A DNA stretch of 33,574 nt from a virus: positions 1-33,574 of the IMG/VR virus record IMGVR_UViG_3300006641_000091. One strand, given 5' to 3'. The notes beneath the pieces are model-generated. The model saw only the letters and a list, made by a program, of their open reading frames with translations, made no database searches and was not told the origin of the DNA. How positions within the stretch are numbered: position 1 is the stretch's first letter; each line of letters begins with the position of its first letter. A program made the position numbers and the translations under genes. Below are positions 6,403 through 33,574 of the stretch, in pieces.

Positions 6403-7068
6403 TTATACCTCTTTCTGTTGCTGACGCTTATTTTCCCACCAAAGTTTTCTTGCCTCTTTCATTTTCATAAGTGTTTCCTCACTATGTTTTTTTCCAAAAT
6501 TTGGATTTTTTTCCCCTTTGTTATTTTCTCTAAACTTTTCTTTTGACTCTTCACTATGTTTTCTACCAATCCAAGGATGTGGTTGATTTTTCCAAGTTTC
6601 TTTTATTCCTTTCTTTATAAGTTCTTTTGTTTCTTGTGAATGTGTTTTACCATGAAATGGATTGTTTTCTCCTTTATAAGATCTACGATTTTTTACATAT
6701 CCGTTATTTTCTATTTGATATTGACTAATAATTTTTTTTGTTTCCTCAGAGTGTAACTTTCCATAAAATGGATTTTCCTCACCAAATTTTTTTTCTGCAT
6801 AATAAAATCCACTTGTTTTTTGTCTTGCTTTATTTGCAAAATGTGGGTTTTTATCTACTTGATAAAATTTATGAAGATCTACTTCTGCTTGGAGTGCTTC
6901 TTCTCTTGTAGAAAAAGTTTCAAGAATTATTTTATCTGTTGGATTAAAAGTTTGGTCGGTATAAGAACCAAGATAATTATCATCTTCTGGGAGACAATCG
7001 CAGGTTCTAGAACCTATATAACCTCTCCCAAATTCTTCATAAGAATAATAAACATAATGATTTTCCAT
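6403..7068 (-). CDS. GIY-YIG homing endonuclease with NUMOD3 repeats
   Basis: A 221-residue free-standing endonuclease. The N-terminal domain begins HYVYYSYEEFGRGYIGSRTC (about 4-23), a variant GIY-YIG core with YVYYS and GYIGSR in place of GIY and YIG. It continues through DNYLGSYTD and a REEALQAEVDLH helix (about 55-66) with the catalytic-type Glu. From about residue 95 come at least four copies of the DNA-binding NUMOD3 motif (NPFxGKxHSEET, NPFHGKTHSQET, PWIGRKHSEES, NPNFGKKHSEET). It sits between two oxygenase genes with 3 bp downstream, a typical intergenic mobile endonuclease. A 10-bp inverted repeat with a perfect late promoter lies just upstream. No strong Shine-Dalgarno is visible. 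Confidence 0.9.
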   Translation of the reverse strand: MENHYVYYSYEEFGRGYIGSRTCDCLPEDDNYLGSYTDQTFNPTDKIILETFSTREEALQAEVDLHKFYQVDKNPHFANKARQKTSGFYYAEKKFGEENPFYGKLHSEETKKIISQYQIENNGYVKNRRSYKGENNPFHGKTHSQETKELIKKGIKETWKNQPHPWIGRKHSEESKEKFRENNKGEKNPNFGKKHSEETLMKMKEARKLWWENKRQQQKEV

Positions 7069-7084
7069 AACATTATTGGTTATC

Positions 7085-7111
7085 GGTGGAAGTATTTATA
7101 TTACTTCCACC
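7085..7111 (-). promoter_or_regulatory. Hairpin with late promoter between its arms, upstream of GIY-YIG gene
   Basis: The perfect 10-bp inverted repeat 7085-7094 / 7102-7111 (GGTGGAAGTA and its complement) has a 7-base loop. The perfect octamer TATAAATA occupies 7093-7100, so it spans the loop and runs 1-2 bases into each arm. A late start about 6 nt downstream would fall inside the 3' arm, so late RNA could not form the hairpin. The 3' arm is 17-26 bases upstream of the ATG. Confidence 0.75.
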
Positions 7112-7117
7112 TAGGTT

Positions 7118-14212: not shown

Positions 14213-14732
14213 CAATTACATTTAGGAGAGCGTATTGTCCAAAGTATTCAAGTGCTTTTTTGTTATATGCAATTGCTGCTTCCTTTTCTGTTAAAAAATA
14301 TTCCGAATAAACGCATTTTCTTTCTACCATCAATCTAGACAACCATTTTTTTCTATTTTTTCTTCTAGAAACTCCCTTATATTTACTTGATGTTTTTCTT
14401 TTTGTCTTTTTTGCATTTCCTCCATTTTGAGAGTGCGTTGCTTTTCTAATATTAAAATTATTACCCCTGCCCGAAATATGGTCAATACAAAAATCTTGAG
14501 GATCTTCTCCTGTTTTCATGTAATATAATATTCTATGAGTTTTATAGTTTCTATCTTTATCGGTTCTTACTCCAACGTGATAGTAACCATAAGTATTAAT
14601 TCTTCCAGCAGTATCTCCTCTTTTGACAGAGTTTGATCTTGGATTTTTCCAAACAAGACCACTAGGAGATGTTTCACTAATTTCAAACAAGTGATTTAAC
14701 AACTCCAGTGGTGGGAGTGGATTGATTTTCAT
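14208..14732 (-). CDS. HNH homing endonuclease with AP2-like domain
   Basis: A 174-residue free-standing endonuclease. KTHRILYYMKTGEDPQDFCI leads into the HNH core CIDHISGRGNNFNIRKATHS (about 82-101; Asp-His pair, central Asn, distal His). From about residue 115 an AP2-like DNA-binding domain follows (SSKYKGVSRRKNRKKWLSRL, then KEAAIAYNKKALEYFGQYA). This HNH-plus-AP2 pairing is common among phage intron-less endonucleases. It is inserted between paralogue B at 14835 and the small fibre at 13832. Its leader contains an inverted repeat, a nested terminator and a perfect late promoter. Confidence 0.9.
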   Translation of the reverse strand: MKINPLPPLELLNHLFEISETSPSGLVWKNPRSNSVKRGDTAGRINTYGYYHVGVRTDKDRNYKTHRILYYMKTGEDPQDFCIDHISGRGNNFNIRKATHSQNGGNAKKTKRKTSSKYKGVSRRKNRKKWLSRLMVERKCVYSEYFLTEKEAAIAYNKKALEYFGQYALLNVIE

Positions 14733-14757
14733 TTTTGCTCTAGAACTACCGCATTAT

Positions 14758-14765
14758 TATTTATA
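14758..14765 (-). promoter_or_regulatory. Late promoter TATAAATA
   Basis: A perfect octamer 25 bp upstream of the HNH ATG at 14732. Confidence 0.7.
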
Positions 14766-14793
14766 GTAAAAGAGGGTGCTTTAGAGGCACCCC
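14766..14793 (-). terminator. Intrinsic terminator upstream of HNH gene
   Basis: On the minus strand a GGGTGC/GCACCC stem (14787-14792 with 14774-14779) and a 7-base loop are followed by TCTTTTAC. It should end transcripts of the gene at 14835. Confidence 0.75.
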
Positions 14794-14828
14794 ATACCTG
14801 TAACGATTGCGGTAGTTTCAGGCGTTAT

Positions 14829-15261: not shown

Positions 15262-15747
15262 TTAATAAGATCCGTGGTTTGCAAAATCCTTGAAGTATTT
15301 ATTACGCATAGAAGTTGCAACTTGTTTTGCTTCTTCTAAGACGGTATAATGACCAAAACAGTGTTTTTTGCCGTTAATATGCATAGAAACTCTCCATTTA
15401 TTCATAGATGAGTTCCAATAAACATTCTTCACACCCGACTTACTTGTAGAGTATATTCTACTATTCTGTCGATTTTGATAAGTATTTGCTTCTCTTAGGT
15501 TTTCTATTCGGTTGTCATAACGATCACCATTAATGTGATCTATTAACTTGGGCATATACCCTTTATGATATAAGAATATAATGCGATGGAGTTTATAGTT
15601 TTGACCATCAATACCTATTCTAACATATCTATGGTGTTTTGGGGAATAACAACCCATTTCTTTATTATCACTTCTTCGGAATAACTTTCCGTCTTCATAC
15701 TTAAAAAGTTCCAGTGCTCTCTCCTGAGAGACCTCTAATCGTTTCAT
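15262..15747 (-). CDS. HNH homing endonuclease with AP2-like domain
   Basis: A 161-residue protein. YKLHRIIFLYHKGYMPKLID is followed by the HNH core LIDHINGDRYDNRIENLREA (about 67-86), then an AP2-like domain (SGVKNVYWNSSMNKWRVSMH, HCFGHYTVLEEAKQVA; about 103-147). It has the same architecture as the gene at 14208, but the sequences differ throughout, so the two did not arise by recent duplication. The stop TAA lies 16 bp before the TTG of paralogue B, leaving that gene's Shine-Dalgarno intact. AATAAATA at 15296-15303 within its 3' end might serve as a late promoter for paralogue B. Confidence 0.9.
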   Translation of the reverse strand: MKRLEVSQERALELFKYEDGKLFRRSDNKEMGCYSPKHHRYVRIGIDGQNYKLHRIIFLYHKGYMPKLIDHINGDRYDNRIENLREANTYQNRQNSRIYSTSKSGVKNVYWNSSMNKWRVSMHINGKKHCFGHYTVLEEAKQVATSMRNKYFKDFANHGSY

Positions 15748-15771
15748 ACTACTCTAAACAGGTGACAAATG

Positions 15772-15779
15772 TATTTATA
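15772..15779 (-). promoter_or_regulatory. Late promoter TATAAATA
   Basis: A perfect octamer 24 bp upstream of the HNH ATG at 15747. Confidence 0.7.
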
Positions 15780-15780
15780 T

Positions 15781-15802
15781 TAAAAAGGAGCATTTCTGCT
15801 CC
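15781..15802 (-). terminator. Intrinsic terminator with GAAA tetraloop
   Basis: On the minus strand a GGAGCA/TGCTCC stem with GAAA loop is followed by TTTTTA. It ends transcripts of the glycine-rich gene at 15866. Confidence 0.85.
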
Positions 15803-15841
15803 CTCCCTTTTCCTGAAGAGTGTCACCTGTTCAGGTCTTTT

Positions 15842-18454: not shown

Positions 18455-19102
18455 TTAAATCCTCTTGCCAGATTTTAGTTTACCAAGTTTCCAACCAGAT
18501 TCTAAATATTTATCAACTTCCTCTTTCTGGACCCATTTCCAACTTACATCATTATGAACTGCTTTTCTGCCATATAATGAATGATTTTCTCCCTGTTGAT
18601 GTTTATTTTTCGCATATGTATCTTTACGCTTTTTAATATATTCTTCAGTTAAAGATTTTTGAGTTCTAATCATTTGGAATTCACGAGTTGCAGTAGAACA
18701 CTTTCCATTTTTCATAGCATTACGAACTCCTAAAGAAATATTACGATTACGTCTTTCTGCCCAGTTTGGATCATTTTTTAATTTTTGAGCAATTGTTTCA
18801 TTACTTTTTATCCAGGTAGATGTTAAACCCGAACCACCTATAGATAAATTATAAGTGTCTTTTCTACAAACAAACTCCTTATTTACAATCTTTTTTTCTA
18901 AATCCATCAATGACTCTCTACTGTCACAATATTCAAGAATAGTTTTTGAAAAATTATTCCTGCCATATTTTTCAATCGCACGGGACACTAAAGTGCTGGA
19001 TCCCATATATCCATCATTTATATTTTCTGTGGAGTGGACTCCAATATAAATTTTTCCGTTTAATTTATTTTCTATTTTATAGAGATAGTGAATTTTTGCC
19101 AT
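18455..19102 (-). CDS. GIY-YIG homing endonuclease (Seg-like)
   Basis: A 215-residue protein. HYLYKIENKLNGKIYIGVHS (about 5-24) is the GIY-YIG core (YLY and YIG), followed by DGYMGSS, AIEKYGRNNFSKTILEYCDS and an LMDLEKKIVNKEFV helix carrying the catalytic-type Glu. The C-terminus has NHSLYGRKAVHNDVSWKWVQ and EEVDKYLESGWKLGK, a DNA-binding end seen in T4 Seg-type endonucleases. It sits between the S74 fibre and a short fibre, 3 bp from the downstream start. Unlike four other endonucleases here, no inverted repeat with a late promoter is visible in its leader. Confidence 0.9.
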   Translation of the reverse strand: MAKIHYLYKIENKLNGKIYIGVHSTENINDGYMGSSTLVSRAIEKYGRNNFSKTILEYCDSRESLMDLEKKIVNKEFVCRKDTYNLSIGGSGLTSTWIKSNETIAQKLKNDPNWAERRNRNISLGVRNAMKNGKCSTATREFQMIRTQKSLTEEYIKKRKDTYAKNKHQQGENHSLYGRKAVHNDVSWKWVQKEEVDKYLESGWKLGKLKSGKRI

Positions 19103-19129: not shown

Positions 19130-20878
19130 TTATTTAGTGTTCTTTAGTTCTTCCACTTCTGCTTTGAGTTCCTTAATCGCTTCAATTAGAACGCCAATAA
19201 TACCATTATAGTTAACAGTCTTAGGGTCATCACCATGAACTAGTTCGGGTAGAACGTCTTCAAGTTCTTGTGCAATTACACCATAAGAAGGAAGACCACT
19301 TTCCTTCCAGTTGAACTTAACTCCACGTAATTGATCGACTTTTAGTAATGCACTATTAACAGTATTGACGTTTTCCTTATAACGAATATCAGAAAGTGAA
19401 TCAAAATCAGTTGCCGTAGCTATTCCAGTTACTCTAATTCCTGCAGGATTGATATTTAAGATTGAAGATCCAGCAGATACAAATGTTTGTTGTCCTGCAG
19501 TTGGTGAGAACACACCAGTTGTTGAACTGTTGTCAAAATACCAACTCGGAGCAATTGCAGTCCCATTCGCGAATGAAAGACTTCCAACTGCTGTAATTAT
19601 ACCAACATTAAATGGTGCAGCATCAACCCATTGGGCACTATCAGTATCTTGGTAATAAATGAATAGTCTACCAATATTTGTATTGTACCAGAGATTTCCA
19701 GACGTTACAAAACCAACAGGAAATCCAGCAGAACCGGGAGTTGATCCAACACCAATTGTCGCACCTCCACCACCACCAACAATATTAACAGTTGCAATAC
19801 CAGTTGTACTATCATAAAAAACTGTTGATAGTCCTGGACCTCTTAGATCAATAAAAGATACTGCATATCCAACAACTCCAGCAGAGGTTCCAATACCAAT
19901 TGTTGCAGTTAGATTTCTTGCATTTCCACTGAGATATGATCCATCTCCATAATAAGTAACAACACCTGAAGTTGCTGTAATAATTCCAGAAGAAATTCTT
20001 ACCGTTCCTAATGTCGAAATTCCAGAAACATTAAGTTGTTTTGCAAATAACGTAGGACCGGTTACTGTTGTAATTCCAGAAAATGTGGAAATACCTGTTA
20101 TATTAATACCAGTTGCATTAATAGTTTGCGCTGATCCTACTCGATAAGTAGTAGAAGTTATAATACCAGTTATATTGACACCAGTTCTATTAATTGTAAC
20201 TGCAGATCCTACAACCACCGATGCAGCAGTTAAAGCAGTTCCAACATTAAAACTTGATGTTACAGTTCCTACACCCGTAACATAAATTCCTGTTGAGTTA
20301 ATGGTAACCGCAGATCCAACTATTGCTGAAGATAATGTGGTTATTCCAGAAACTCTTAGGTTATTTGATATATCAACACTATTATTAATATCAGTATAAC
20401 CATCAAAAGTAGATATACCTGTTACGTAGAGAGTTGCTCCGCTATTCAGTTGTGCAGCTTGACTTACAAAAAGTCTATTAATATCTGCTTGATCAAGAAC
20501 AATATCATCAATATTAACGTCTCCAGTTACATTAAGATCACCATAAACATAGAGTGCTGTCTGGCCAGTAGAAACCGGAGAGCGAACATCCAATAAGTAT
20601 TCCGGATATGCAGTACCAACACCTATAGATTTTGCTATTCCAGTTGGTCCTGCAATTACACTAAAAGCTTGTCCACCCGCTCCAACTCTTAGTTCATTTG
20701 TAATTGTTGAAATTCCACTGACATAAGAGTTGGTAACACCAATTCCACCTATAACATGAAATCCGTATTGTGGGATTGTTGTACCAATACCAACCTTATC
20801 TGTCGTAGCGTCTGCAACGATAAGGTTGGTATTAACCTCAAATCCGTTCTTAACTACAAAATTCTTATTTACTGCCAT
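19130..20878 (-). CDS. Tail fibre with C-terminal peptidase S74 chaperone
   Basis: A 582-residue protein. The N-terminus MAVNKNFVVKNGFEVNTNLI is a frequent cyanophage fibre head. About 430 residues of stalk follow, with repeated SAIVGSAVTIN-STGI units (about 180-330). The last 87 residues form the intramolecular chaperone: SDIRYKENVNTV (Ser about 496, Lys about 501, the Ser-Lys dyad spacing used for self-cleavage), then YGVIAQELEDVLPELV, and a C-terminal coiled coil (EAIKELKAEVEELKN). In this family the chaperone trimerises the fibre and cuts itself off just before the Ser. Residues NLWYNTNIGRLFIYYQDTDS (about 395-414) form another common fibre module. A late octamer lies 32 bp upstream. Confidence 0.9.
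   Translation of the reverse strand: MAVNKNFVVKNGFEVNTNLIVADATTDKVGIGTTIPQYGFHVIGGIGVTNSYVSGISTITNELRVGAGGQAFSVIAGPTGIAKSIGVGTAYPEYLLDVRSPVSTGQTALYVYGDLNVTGDVNIDDIVLDQADINRLFVSQAAQLNSGATLYVTGISTFDGYTDINNSVDISNNLRVSGITTLSSAIVGSAVTINSTGIYVTGVGTVTSSFNVGTALTAASVVVGSAVTINRTGVNITGIITSTTYRVGSAQTINATGINITGISTFSGITTVTGPTLFAKQLNVSGISTLGTVRISSGIITATSGVVTYYGDGSYLSGNARNLTATIGIGTSAGVVGYAVSFIDLRGPGLSTVFYDSTTGIATVNIVGGGGGATIGVGSTPGSAGFPVGFVTSGNLWYNTNIGRLFIYYQDTDSAQWVDAAPFNVGIITAVGSLSFANGTAIAPSWYFDNSSTTGVFSPTAGQQTFVSAGSSILNINPAGIRVTGIATATDFDSLSDIRYKENVNTVNSALLKVDQLRGVKFNWKESGLPSYGVIAQELEDVLPELVHGDDPKTVNYNGIIGVLIEAIKELKAEVEELKNTK
19131..19137 (-). promoter_or_regulatory. Late promoter-like CTAAATA over a stop codon
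   Basis: Overlaps the end of the S74 fibre gene and lies about 28 bp upstream of the GIY-YIG ATG at 19102. A weaker match than the octamers. Confidence 0.4.
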
Positions 20879-31281: not shown

Positions 31282-31890
31282 TTACCACTTTTCTTCTTTC
31301 CATGTCAAGCGTTTTTTAAGTTCTTTATCAAAAACCATTAAGTATCTATGCTTCCTGCTACGATCTCTCCATTCACCCTCAACACCCTTCACAGAACCTC
31401 TAGAATGCTTTGTTCCGTCAGTATAATAAAAGTCTTTCTTAGGGTTTGTTAAACCGTAGTATTGAAAATTGCAAGCTCTGTATATAGTTCCAAGGTGGTG
31501 ATTAGAGTCAGCGTAACTAAGAATAGCACGAACTGTGGCATCTTTCCTAAATCTCCTTATGCAACGACTAACGAACCAAGATGTGATATTATATTCTTCT
31601 TTTTGAATATCAGGGTGAATACAAAGTCTTGATAACTCATATATTCCTTGCTGCTGATTTCTTTCTAAACCAAACGCACCTACGGCAATTTCTGGAACTG
31701 GGAGACCACTAAAAATGCAAGTGCCAAGACACCCGCCAATATTAAGGATATCTGTGAATGACCTTCTGTATAAACCATAATTGAAACCAGATTTAAAATC
31801 TTTGGATTCATCTTTTAGATAATGATAGGTATAAAGAAGTTCTTTGACTTCTTCTTTACCAACTTTATCTATATAAAAATCTGATTTCAT
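31282..31890 (-). CDS. Mom-like DNA-modification protein (GNAT-fold), putative
   Basis: A 202-residue protein. The diagnostic part is about 83-142: YELSRLCIHPDIQKEEYNIT, then SWFVSRCIRRFRKDATVRAI, then LSYADSNHHLGTIYRACNFQ and YYGLT. This series (SRL...P...NxxSWFxSRxIR...LxSYAD...HxGTIYRAxNWxYxGxT) is the core of the phage Mom-like family, a GNAT-type fold that in phage Mu alters adenines to protect DNA from restriction. An early LLYTYHYLKDES fits the HYxxx start of that family. C-terminal VKGVEGEWRDRSRKHRYLMV is basic, as for a DNA-acting enzyme. It lies 10 bp after a 57-residue gene and is followed by a terminator. The substrate and exact modification are unproven; a plain acetyltransferase is the alternative. 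Confidence 0.65.
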   Translation of the reverse strand: MKSDFYIDKVGKEEVKELLYTYHYLKDESKDFKSGFNYGLYRRSFTDILNIGGCLGTCIFSGLPVPEIAVGAFGLERNQQQGIYELSRLCIHPDIQKEEYNITSWFVSRCIRRFRKDATVRAILSYADSNHHLGTIYRACNFQYYGLTNPKKDFYYTDGTKHSRGSVKGVEGEWRDRSRKHRYLMVFDKELKKRLTWKEEKW

Positions 31891-32074: not shown

Positions 32075-32096
32075 TTTATAGTTTTATAAGAACTAA

Positions 32097-32167
32097 AGCC
32101 CCTAGACAGAATTGAACTGTCGTCTCCGCTTTACAAGAGCGGTGCATCACCACAATGCTTTAGAGGC
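32097..32167 (-). tRNA. tRNA-Thr(UGU)
   Basis: A 71-nt cloverleaf on the minus strand. The 7-bp acceptor stem is GCCTCTA with TAGGGGC (one T-G pair). The D stem is GCAT/ATGC. The anticodon stem is CCGCT/AGCGG with loop CTTGTAA, so the anticodon is TGT, reading ACA. The T stem is GACAG/CTGTC with loop TTCAATT. The variable region is short and CCA is not encoded. The stop codon of the HNH gene at 32160 lies inside the 5' acceptor strand, an 8-base overlap. A tRNA for an A-ending codon suits an AT-rich phage genome. Confidence 0.92.
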
Positions 32168-32576
32168 ATATTTTTTGTCGGTGGAAATCTAATCTTGCTC
32201 TATCACGCCTTTCAACTCTACCATTACCTTTATTCTTCCCTTTATATGTAGAAGTTTGAGAGTGACAGTTTGGGCAAATATAACGAAGATTTGATATATC
32301 GTTATTATAAGGATTTCCGTCTTTATGGTCAATCTCTAATGATAGAGGTTTATTGTTCCATTCAGAAATACTACAACAAGAACATTTATATCCATAATTT
32401 TCAGTTAGGTATTTTTTAAGTGCTTTTTTACCAGGAGGTCTTCCACCACTTAACCATTCATCAATTCTTTGCTTTTGCTGAAATTCTTGTTGACATTTGT
32501 TAGAACAATATTTACCAGTTTTGTTTGCTGGGTTATATCTAAACTCCACAGAGCAAAAATTACATTTACCTAACAT
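32160..32576 (-). CDS. HNH homing endonuclease with zinc fingers
   Basis: A 138-residue protein. An N-terminal zinc-binding unit has C5, C8, C23 and C27 (KCNFC...YCSNKC), followed by a basic linker (GGRPPGKKALKKYL), a second Cys cluster (YKCSCCS, about 63-69) and the HNH core LEIDHKDGNPYNNDISNLRY (about 79-98) closing with ICPNCHSQTSTYKGKNKG. The Asp-His, Asn and distal His of the HNH motif are all present. Its stop TAA lies 3-5 bases into the 3' side of the overlap with tRNA-Thr. The start codon and a likely AAGG Shine-Dalgarno are inside the 3' arm of a 16-bp inverted repeat whose loop holds a late promoter. Confidence 0.88.
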   Translation of the reverse strand: MLGKCNFCSVEFRYNPANKTGKYCSNKCQQEFQQKQRIDEWLSGGRPPGKKALKKYLTENYGYKCSCCSISEWNNKPLSLEIDHKDGNPYNNDISNLRYICPNCHSQTSTYKGKNKGNGRVERRDRARLDFHRQKICL

Positions 32577-32616
32577 AGTAGACCTTTTTATTTTATTTAT
32601 AAGGTCTACTATGTTA
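32571..32616 (-). promoter_or_regulatory. 16-bp hairpin with late promoter in loop, covering HNH start
   Basis: The perfect arms 32571-32586 and 32601-32616 flank a 14-base spacer. TATAAATA lies at 32594-32601. In RNA the 3' arm contains AAGG and the ATG (32574-32576) of the HNH gene, so read-through RNA would hide both. A late start near 32588 would omit the 5' arm. The upstream arm carries the stop codon of the 89-residue gene. Confidence 0.85.
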
Positions 32617-32883
32617 ATCAGCAGGCATCATTTCTGGATTTTCCAGTTCAACTTCAAATAACATTGGATGACACTCTTCATCAATCAAATAGAATGATGA
32701 TTTATATAGGTCCTCTGGTTCGAAGCGTCTTTCTTTGTCTGCTAATTCTATGAGTTCCAAATCGTACATAAGACTATCTGGAACATCATCAAAAGTAAAA
32801 GGAACTTGATTTATAAAGTACATCAGAACCAATTGAGTTCCTCTATTGTACCAGCAATATCTTGCATCAATACGGTACTTCAT
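32614..32883 (-). CDS. Conserved hypothetical phage protein, 89 residues
   Basis: The protein starts MKYRIDARYCWYNRGTQLVL, has an acidic middle (FDDVPDSLMYDLELIELADK, about 30-49) and ends VELENPEMMPAD. There are no membrane segments or known catalytic motifs, and the charge is strongly acidic. I do not recognise the function. It lies between tRNA(UAA) and the HNH gene. Its TAA is the first part of the hairpin that controls the HNH gene. The Shine-Dalgarno AGGA lies in a small TAGGA/TCCTA stem-loop next to the ATG, and CTAAATA at 32905-32911 may be a weak late promoter. Confidence 0.7.
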   Translation of the reverse strand: MKYRIDARYCWYNRGTQLVLMYFINQVPFTFDDVPDSLMYDLELIELADKERRFEPEDLYKSSFYLIDEECHPMLFEVELENPEMMPAD

Positions 32884-32924: not shown

Positions 32925-32998
32925 TACCCGTGGGCGGATTCGAACCGCCGACTGCTCGATTTTAAGTCGAGAACCTCATTCCGCTGGGTCACACGGGC
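32925..32998 (-). tRNA. tRNA with UAA anticodon (Leu), lacking a long variable arm
   Basis: A 74-nt cloverleaf on the minus strand. The acceptor is GCCCGTG/CACGGGT (first pair G-T) with discriminator A. The D stem is ACC/GGT, and the loop contains GG. The anticodon stem is CTCGA/TCGAG with loop CTTAAAA, so the anticodon is TAA, reading UUA (Leu). The T stem is GGCGG/CCGCC with loop TTCGAAT. The variable region is only 5 nt (CAGTC), whereas bacterial and phage tRNA-Leu normally have a long variable arm. The anticodon supports Leu; the body does not. CCA is not encoded. The 5' end overlaps the HNH gene by 10 bases. Confidence 0.85.
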
Positions 32999-33426
32999 TT
33001 ATAGTTTAGATTTGGTTTTCCTCCTCTAAAAGTTTTATTTAACCTTTGACTATATTTTCCAGCACAGGATTTAGAACAAAATGGACCAACTTTTTGTTGT
33101 TTTAGATTGTTATGTCTAATGTCTCTTGCTGGTTTATAGAAAGATTTATCACATTCAGGACATACACAACAAATCATTTCTGCTCTGTTATGTACTGCTG
33201 CGTGTTTCCTTATGTTATCTACTCTACTTAAAACTTGTAAATTGTCAAGTGAATTGTTAGTAAAGTCTCCGTCTATATGGTCACAGGTTTCATCAGGCAA
33301 AAGAGGTCTACCAAGTTTTTGTTCTAAAAGATATTTTGGATAAGAAACTGTTGTTCTTTTACCATTTTCATAGAGAACAATTCTTTGTCTTCCGTCTTTT
33401 GCTGTATATGGACCATATACTTTCAT
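32989..33426 (-). CDS. HNH homing endonuclease with C-terminal zinc-binding cysteines
   Basis: A 145-residue protein. RTTVSYPKYLLEQKLGRPLL leads to the HNH core CDHIDGDFTNNSLDNLQVLS (about 48-67), then VDNIRKHAAVHN. The C-terminal part has CCVCPECDKSFYKPARD and FCSKSCAGKYSQR, a four-Cys zinc site, and a basic tail. It ends KPV-TGA, with these codons formed by the first ten bases of the tRNA. A consensus sigma70 promoter lies upstream (33455-33484). The leader has a small ATCACC/GGTGAT hairpin close to the Shine-Dalgarno (GGGTGA). Its domain order differs from the HNH gene at 32160, so it is a separate lineage. Confidence 0.88.
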   Translation of the reverse strand: MKVYGPYTAKDGRQRIVLYENGKRTTVSYPKYLLEQKLGRPLLPDETCDHIDGDFTNNSLDNLQVLSRVDNIRKHAAVHNRAEMICCVCPECDKSFYKPARDIRHNNLKQQKVGPFCSKSCAGKYSQRLNKTFRGGKPNLNYKPV

Positions 33427-33432
33427 TATAAA

Positions 33433-33451
33433 ATCACCCTTTGTAGGTGAT
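33433..33451 (-). promoter_or_regulatory. Small hairpin in HNH leader
   Basis: The 6-bp arms 33433-33438 and 33446-33451 (ATCACC/GGTGAT) flank a 7-base loop. The 3' arm overlaps the likely Shine-Dalgarno of the HNH gene. The predicted start of the sigma70 promoter, near 33448, falls inside the 5' arm. Confidence 0.45.
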
Positions 33452-33574
33452 AGGATTATACTTGAGAAACTCCCAGAATGTCAACTTCATTTCTTTTTGT
33501 GACATTCCACAGTGTTTTGCTGCTTTAGGGAGATTCCACTTTGCAGTAAAGAGTGCTTCATTTGACTCTTTTAC
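33434..33574 (-). CDS. Conserved cyanophage protein, C-terminal part
   Basis: An open frame of 47 codons running in from the window edge to TGA at 33434-33436. It reads EALFTAKWNLPKAAKHCGMS, then QKEMKLTFWEFLKYNP. The xxKWxLPxAAKxCxMxxxEMKxxFxE pattern is that of a short helical protein I associate with T4-like cyanophages, with unknown role. It may be a helix-turn-helix-like regulator, judging by the PKAAKHCGMSQKEM segment, but that is a guess. The 5' end is outside the window. Its 3' third contains a consensus promoter for the next gene. Confidence 0.7.
   Translation of the reverse strand, partial: VKESNEALFTAKWNLPKAAKHCGMSQKEMKLTFWEFLKYNPITYKG
33455..33484 (-). promoter_or_regulatory. Consensus sigma70 promoter
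   Basis: On the minus strand TTGACA (33479-33484) and TATAAT (33455-33460) are both perfect, with an 18-bp spacer. It lies inside the end of the upstream gene and should drive the HNH, tRNA and downstream genes early in infection. Confidence 0.8.

Follow-up and report, generated by a model that had tools for sequence, protein, structure and literature searches.

A late promoter inside a start-codon hairpin as a probable switch of a mobile HNH endonuclease-tRNA cassette in a T4-like cyanophage

The window, i.e., the whole stretch of 33,574 nucleotides that was analysed, comes from a T4-like cyanophage and is a fragment of 33.6 kb. It has genes for tail fibres, tRNA-Leu, and tRNA-Thr, a Mom-like gene, and several homing-type endonuclease genes. 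The Mom-like DNA modification protein (31282-31890, minus strand) adjoins a tail-fibre gene. One of the endonuclease genes encodes an HNH protein, whose HNH_3 domain (PF13392) scored 26.2 bits, above the curated cut-off of 24.8, and which was matched to PHROG HNH endonuclease families. The features of this locus are as follows.

32160 to 32576, minus strand: HNH endonuclease, 138 aa (Pfam HNH_3; PHROG HNH endonucleases)
32097 to 32167, minus strand: tRNA-Thr(UGU), overlapped at the 5' end by the HNH stop codon; it forms the 3' boundary of the shared cassette
32614 to 32883, minus strand: upstream gene, PHROG 4134, 89 aa; its stop codon (32616-32614) opens the 5' arm
32571 to 32616, minus strand: whole hairpin, 16-bp perfect stem and 14-nt loop
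32601 to 32616, minus strand: 5' arm of the RNA hairpin, TAACATAGTAGACCTT; it would be missing from RNA begun at the late promoter
32571 to 32586, minus strand: 3' arm, AAGGTCTACTATGTTA, with the Shine-Dalgarno AAGG (32586-32583) and the start codon ATG (32576-32574)
32594 to 32601, minus strand: T4-type late promoter TATAAATA, predicted RNA start at about 32588
32096 to 32612, minus strand: cassette of hairpin, promoter, HNH gene, and tRNA-Thr, as DNA common to Synechococcus phage DSL-LC03, where the surroundings are different
33455 to 33484, minus strand: candidate early promoter TTGACA-18-TATAAT, 12/12, by consensus only

In the related phages S-SM2 and SynMITS9220M01, the 89-aa gene is followed directly by tRNA-Thr and there is no HNH gene, so the HNH gene of the window was regarded as an insertion at the junction of these two genes. 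The candidate early promoter, which precedes the operon leading into the hairpin, lies approximately 880 nt upstream of the hairpin on the same strand, with no NATAAATA in between. It appears to share sequence with the end of a coding region located upstream. Between it and another HNH ORF (32989-33426), a small terminator-like hairpin was seen at 33433-33451 (minus strand). The late promoter coincides in part with a weak sigma-70-like site (10/12).

By inverted-repeat search, the two arms of the hairpin were complementary at 16 of 16 positions with 14 nt between them, and no longer perfect short-range inverted repeat was found in the window. By chance, 3.6e-4 perfect stems of 16 bp with a loop of 3-20 nt would be expected in the window, and the longest perfect stem in 12 first-order random windows was 12 bp. 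The plus-strand reading of the repeat folded at -22 kcal/mol (z = -6.4, none of 200 shuffles as stable) and the minus-strand hairpin RNA at -22.8 kcal/mol. The minus strand, which is the transcribed one, reads TAACATAGTAGACCTT-ATAAATAAAATAAA-AAGGTCTACTATGTTA from 32616 to 32571. Because TATAAATA occupies 32601-32594, its first T closes the 5' arm as the last base of that arm, and the other seven of its eight bases lie in the loop. The distance from TATAAATA to the ATG is 25 nt. By the promoter geometry of T4, a late start 6 nt past TATAAATA would fall on 32588 by arithmetic, approximately 2 nt before the 3' arm. The earlier note, made from the letters of the DNA, had described the perfect hairpin, the AAGG and ATG of the HNH gene inside the 3' arm, the promoter in the loop with a start just before the 3' arm, and the upstream stop codon in the 5' arm. 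This anatomy was found as described, and all the coordinates hold; the TAA makes up the first three bases of the 5' arm. An intrinsic terminator was rejected, i.e., no T run follows the 3' arm on the minus strand and the site is absent from the terminator scan. In the search for known RNA families, only chance matches below the cut-off were obtained at the hairpin.

The hairpin was found again before HNH genes in other surroundings. DSL-LC03 (L001) shares the DNA between position 32612, inside the 5' arm, and position 32096, at the 3' end of tRNA-Thr, and in that phage the cassette sits after a broken tRNA 5' half. Viral contigs were searched with the pattern TATAAATA N4-14 AGGTCTACTATG, which represents the promoter and the 3' arm only and leaves the 5' arm free. 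Eleven stretches were obtained, each of them with a 5' arm complementary over at least 7 bp; a near-identical contig (L007/L038) was not counted as independent. The hairpin follows the 89-aa gene in the window, L008, and L009, and tRNA-Leu in L039 and L041. It lies within tRNA arrays in L037, L049, and L053, and after broken tRNA 5' halves in L049 and L051, as in DSL-LC03, which came from the phage collection and is outside the 11. The hairpin, the promoter, the HNH gene, and tRNA-Thr thus recur as one unit in unrelated surroundings. In three of the 11 stretches (L040, L049, and L053), the hairpin precedes HNH proteins that are far from that of the window. The HNH protein of L040 is 36% identical to it, and the DNA similarity ends at the start codon, which suggests from the position of this boundary that the switch was exchanged between HNH genes. 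In the closest relatives (L008, L009, and L051), the stem is shorter, at 7-10 bp, and the base beside the promoter is mismatched; therefore, a strong hairpin is not strictly required.

The pairing was also analysed in HNH relatives gathered by protein similarity. At each locus, the 27 nt up to TAAATA were compared with the stretch from TAAATA to just beyond the ATG. For 32 HNH proteins less than 70% identical, the duplexes averaged -14.6 kcal/mol, and arms combined from different loci averaged -8.8 kcal/mol (p = 6.5e-9); none of 20,000 re-pairings of the arms matched the energy sum. In the set of 29 non-redundant relatives that came from the protein search alone, i.e., the 32 minus three loci found by the hairpin pattern, 18 had at least 7 Watson-Crick pairs around TAAATA, compared with 11.7% of mismatched arm pairs. 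These 18 stem-bearing relatives have 18 distinct 5' arm sequences, for example, the arm pairs TTTAACTTACAACCT/AGGTTGTAAGTTAAA (L061), ATTACTTAGAGCA/TGCTCTAAGTAAT (L077), and TGAGTAGAGCAT/ATGCTCTACTCA (L069). Across the HNH family, the pairing is kept while the sequence of the stem changes. Most 3' arms of the 29-member set end within a few bases of the AUG, and the spacing from TAAATA to ATG is 21 to 35 nt among stem-bearing members. About one third of the family is without a clear stem; a clear promoter-in-loop stem was not seen at the relatives in Escherichia phage OE5505 (L137) and Cronobacter phage LPCS28 (L140).

No pairing excess was obtained for 39 other cyanophage and window ORFs with TAAATA upstream (p = 0.85), and the T4 control gave a slight excess, owing to the known cases of T4. 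When TATAAATA sites were scanned in the window and in 150 kb each of T4 and DSL-LC03, with no prior knowledge of the T4 cases given, the HNH gene of DSL-LC03 ranked first (-30.8) and the window site next (-29.5), followed by I-TevIII, I-TevII, and gene e of T4. The T4 gene rI (at about 59495, minus strand; L045) also stood high in the promoter-spanning duplex scan, at -16.6 kcal/mol. Upstream sigma-70 consensus sites of at least 11/12 were present at 18 of 42 HNH family loci, with none on the opposite strand and 1.2 expected.

Comparable arrangements have been studied in T4 and its relatives. A hairpin combined with a late promoter was shown or implicated for I-TevI, I-TevII, I-TevIII, segB, and mobE of Aeh1 (PMC2988022), and sequestration of the ribosome-binding site (RBS) was described in T4 genes such as e and soc (PMC3014915). 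In I-TevI, I-TevII, and I-TevIII, as here, the RBS and start lie in a stable hairpin of the read-through RNA and the late RNA is without the 5' arm. However, those genes lie in group I introns, whereas the HNH gene of the window is a free-standing intergenic gene linked to a tRNA gene. The T4 segB and Aeromonas phage Aeh1 mobE genes are free-standing and have the hairpin and late promoter, and segB is likewise located in a tRNA gene cluster. Unlike the window gene, segB encodes a GIY-YIG enzyme, and mobE lies at a ribonucleotide reductase gene; in the literature on these two genes, no description of a travelling hairpin module joined to a tRNA was found. Gene e also has TATAAATA within an inhibitory structure, with approximately 21 nt from TATAAATA to the ATG against 25 nt here, but e and soc are ordinary late phage genes that are not mobile. 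The nearest likeness is the HNH gene of DSL-LC03 (WJZ47900), which has the same hairpin core sequence, promoter, and tRNA-Thr and whose protein is 75% identical; its 5' surrounding is the broken tRNA half, whereas that of the window is a protein gene. By its anatomy, as read from the sequence, the window hairpin belongs to the T4-type RBS-sequestering hairpins with a late promoter inside.

The effect of the hairpin on the start region was modelled in silico. In the read-through RNA, opening of the stretch from the Shine-Dalgarno to the AUG cost 20.2 kcal/mol and the mean probability of being unpaired was 0.015; in RNA starting at 32588, the values were 2.6 kcal/mol and 0.69. In cyanophages, the late promoter consensus NATAAATA and homologues of T4 genes 55, 33, and 45 have been described (PMC2984593). 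DSL-LC03 is annotated with a late sigma factor and a late promoter regulator, and the window itself is a fragment of 33.6 kb. We infer an RNA start at about 32588, use of this promoter late in infection, and blocking of ribosomes by the fold in the cell. Early sigma-70-type promoters upstream would give RNA that reads through the tRNA-Leu and 89-aa operon and includes both arms. This RNA would fold and bury the AAGG and AUG, and little HNH protein would be made from it. A late RNA polymerase of the gp55 type would start at TATAAATA in the loop, approximately 2 nt before the 3' arm, and the resulting RNA, without the 5' arm, would have an open HNH start and be translated. From the modelled opening costs, the upstream sigma-70 sites, and the usage of late promoters in cyanophages, it is most likely that the early RNA is folded and silent and the late RNA open and translated. 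We consider it very probable that the hairpin acts as a switch, by timing and by choice of transcript, for the mobile HNH endonuclease cassette in which it lies. The cassette adjoins tail-fibre genes and some read-through RNA may be late; therefore, the choice made by the switch may depend on where the RNA begins, i.e., on which RNA it is, as much as on time. The proposal of the earlier note, that the hairpin hides the HNH start on read-through RNA and that RNA from the loop promoter escapes, is thus supported by analogy with T4 and Aeh1, by the covarying arms with controls that gave no such excess, and by the modelled fall of the opening cost.

A further layer had been proposed in the same note, i.e., that ribosomes finishing the upstream gene could open the hairpin. 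As a rival to the switch, this coupling would dominate, with ribosomes ending the 89-aa gene melting the 5' arm and HNH protein made at any time. The geometry of the window fits it, as the 5' arm opens with the TAA and would lie partly under a ribosome that terminates there; L008 and L009 share the same upstream gene. It was not conserved in the relatives, however. The stop of L009 lies approximately 10 nt upstream of the stem, and in L001, L037, L039/L041, L049, and L051 the hairpin is preceded by tRNAs or tRNA fragments and not by the end of a gene. Relatives of this kind cannot use the opening by ribosomes, which is therefore an unlikely reason for the retention of the hairpin. The overlap with the stop codon seems to have arisen by chance at this particular insertion site, and dominance of coupling is judged unlikely. 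The same tRNA surroundings speak against the hairpin being mainly a 3'-end or processing structure, which would protect or end the upstream RNA or serve as an RNase site that frees the tRNA or the HNH message. The hairpin does begin at the stop codon of the upstream gene, and intergenic processing is common in phage RNAs. However, there is no U tract after it, it is not in the terminator listing, and every hairpin of the core group spans the HNH translation start and has the promoter in its loop. We regard this explanation as highly improbable.

The symmetry of the arms about TATAAATA would also suit a DNA operator, in which a dimeric protein, perhaps the HNH protein itself, binds the arms and shuts off transcription. 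Autorepression of I-TevI through an operator that overlaps its late promoter is known (PMC2988022). In an operator, however, the sequence of the arms should matter, and the relatives have 18 distinct arms with the pairing kept. The 5' arm drifts in the core group against a fixed 3' arm, although the 3' arm was fixed by the search. In L049, a G.U pair fits RNA and is a mismatch in DNA, and the TAAATA-to-ATG spacing varies as given above. A palindromic operator is therefore disfavoured and very unlikely, and the RNA switch is retained as the preferred reading.

The HNH family is tied to tRNA genes. In 28 of 48 HNH relatives, the gene ends within 40 nt of a tRNA 5' end. The following tRNA often provides the HNH stop within its own 5' end (L001, L040, L135, L138, and others; 32160-32170 in the window), for example by the conserved TAG at tRNA positions 8-10. 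Clear cases of displaced tRNA 5' halves directly upstream of the hairpin are L001, L049, L051, L080, and L088; it looks as though the cassette had inserted into a tRNA gene and carried an intact tRNA with it. In L064, L065, and L088, the 5' arm itself resembles a tRNA D-arm, which is suggestive only. A wider and tentative possibility, which we think doubtful at present, is that these are widespread HNH cassettes invading tRNA genes, with the promoter-in-loop switch at the 5' side and the end on or in a tRNA 5' end. Their insertion would displace the old tRNA 5' half, and some lineages would use the displaced D-arm (GGTAGAGC) as the 5' arm of the off-switch, the early RNA of the tRNA operon thereby silencing the cassette.

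No description of HNH genes that split and rebuild tRNA genes was found in the open-licence literature. Nor was an account found there of how widely one HNH family has the switch, of the switch moving as a unit, or of its link to tRNA genes; this absence is weak evidence of novelty. The results suggest that, beyond a few oddities of T4, the late-promoter-in-hairpin switch recurs in a large family of phage HNH genes as a covarying 5' module that can be transferred. It may reflect a general rule of how mobile endonucleases stay silent within early tRNA operons. The broken tRNA halves give a concrete route by which such genes may invade tRNA genes and yet not destroy them.

The same switch was not present at the other homing-type genes of the window that start at 14732, 15747, 33426, and 19102. 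The HNH gene at 33426 and the GIY-YIG gene at 19102 have neither the hairpin nor TATAAATA. Before the HNH genes at 14732 and 15747, a terminator-like hairpin with a T run is followed by TATAAATA (14732-14800 and 15747-15815, minus strand), i.e., an arrangement of terminator plus late promoter and not a sequestering hairpin. A 10-bp hairpin, GGTGGAAGTA/TACTTCCACC, was seen around TATAAATA at 7085-7115 (minus strand) before the ORF 6403-7068, a GIY-YIG/NUMOD3 endonuclease. Its stem stops short of the start region, and it is reminiscent of seg43(25) of Aeromonas phage 25. Inside the start of a 582-aa gene, a 15-bp perfect inverted repeat lies at 20786-20833 (minus strand), and before the ATG of this gene, at 20878 (minus strand), a pairing of -16.8 kcal/mol surrounds TAAATA.
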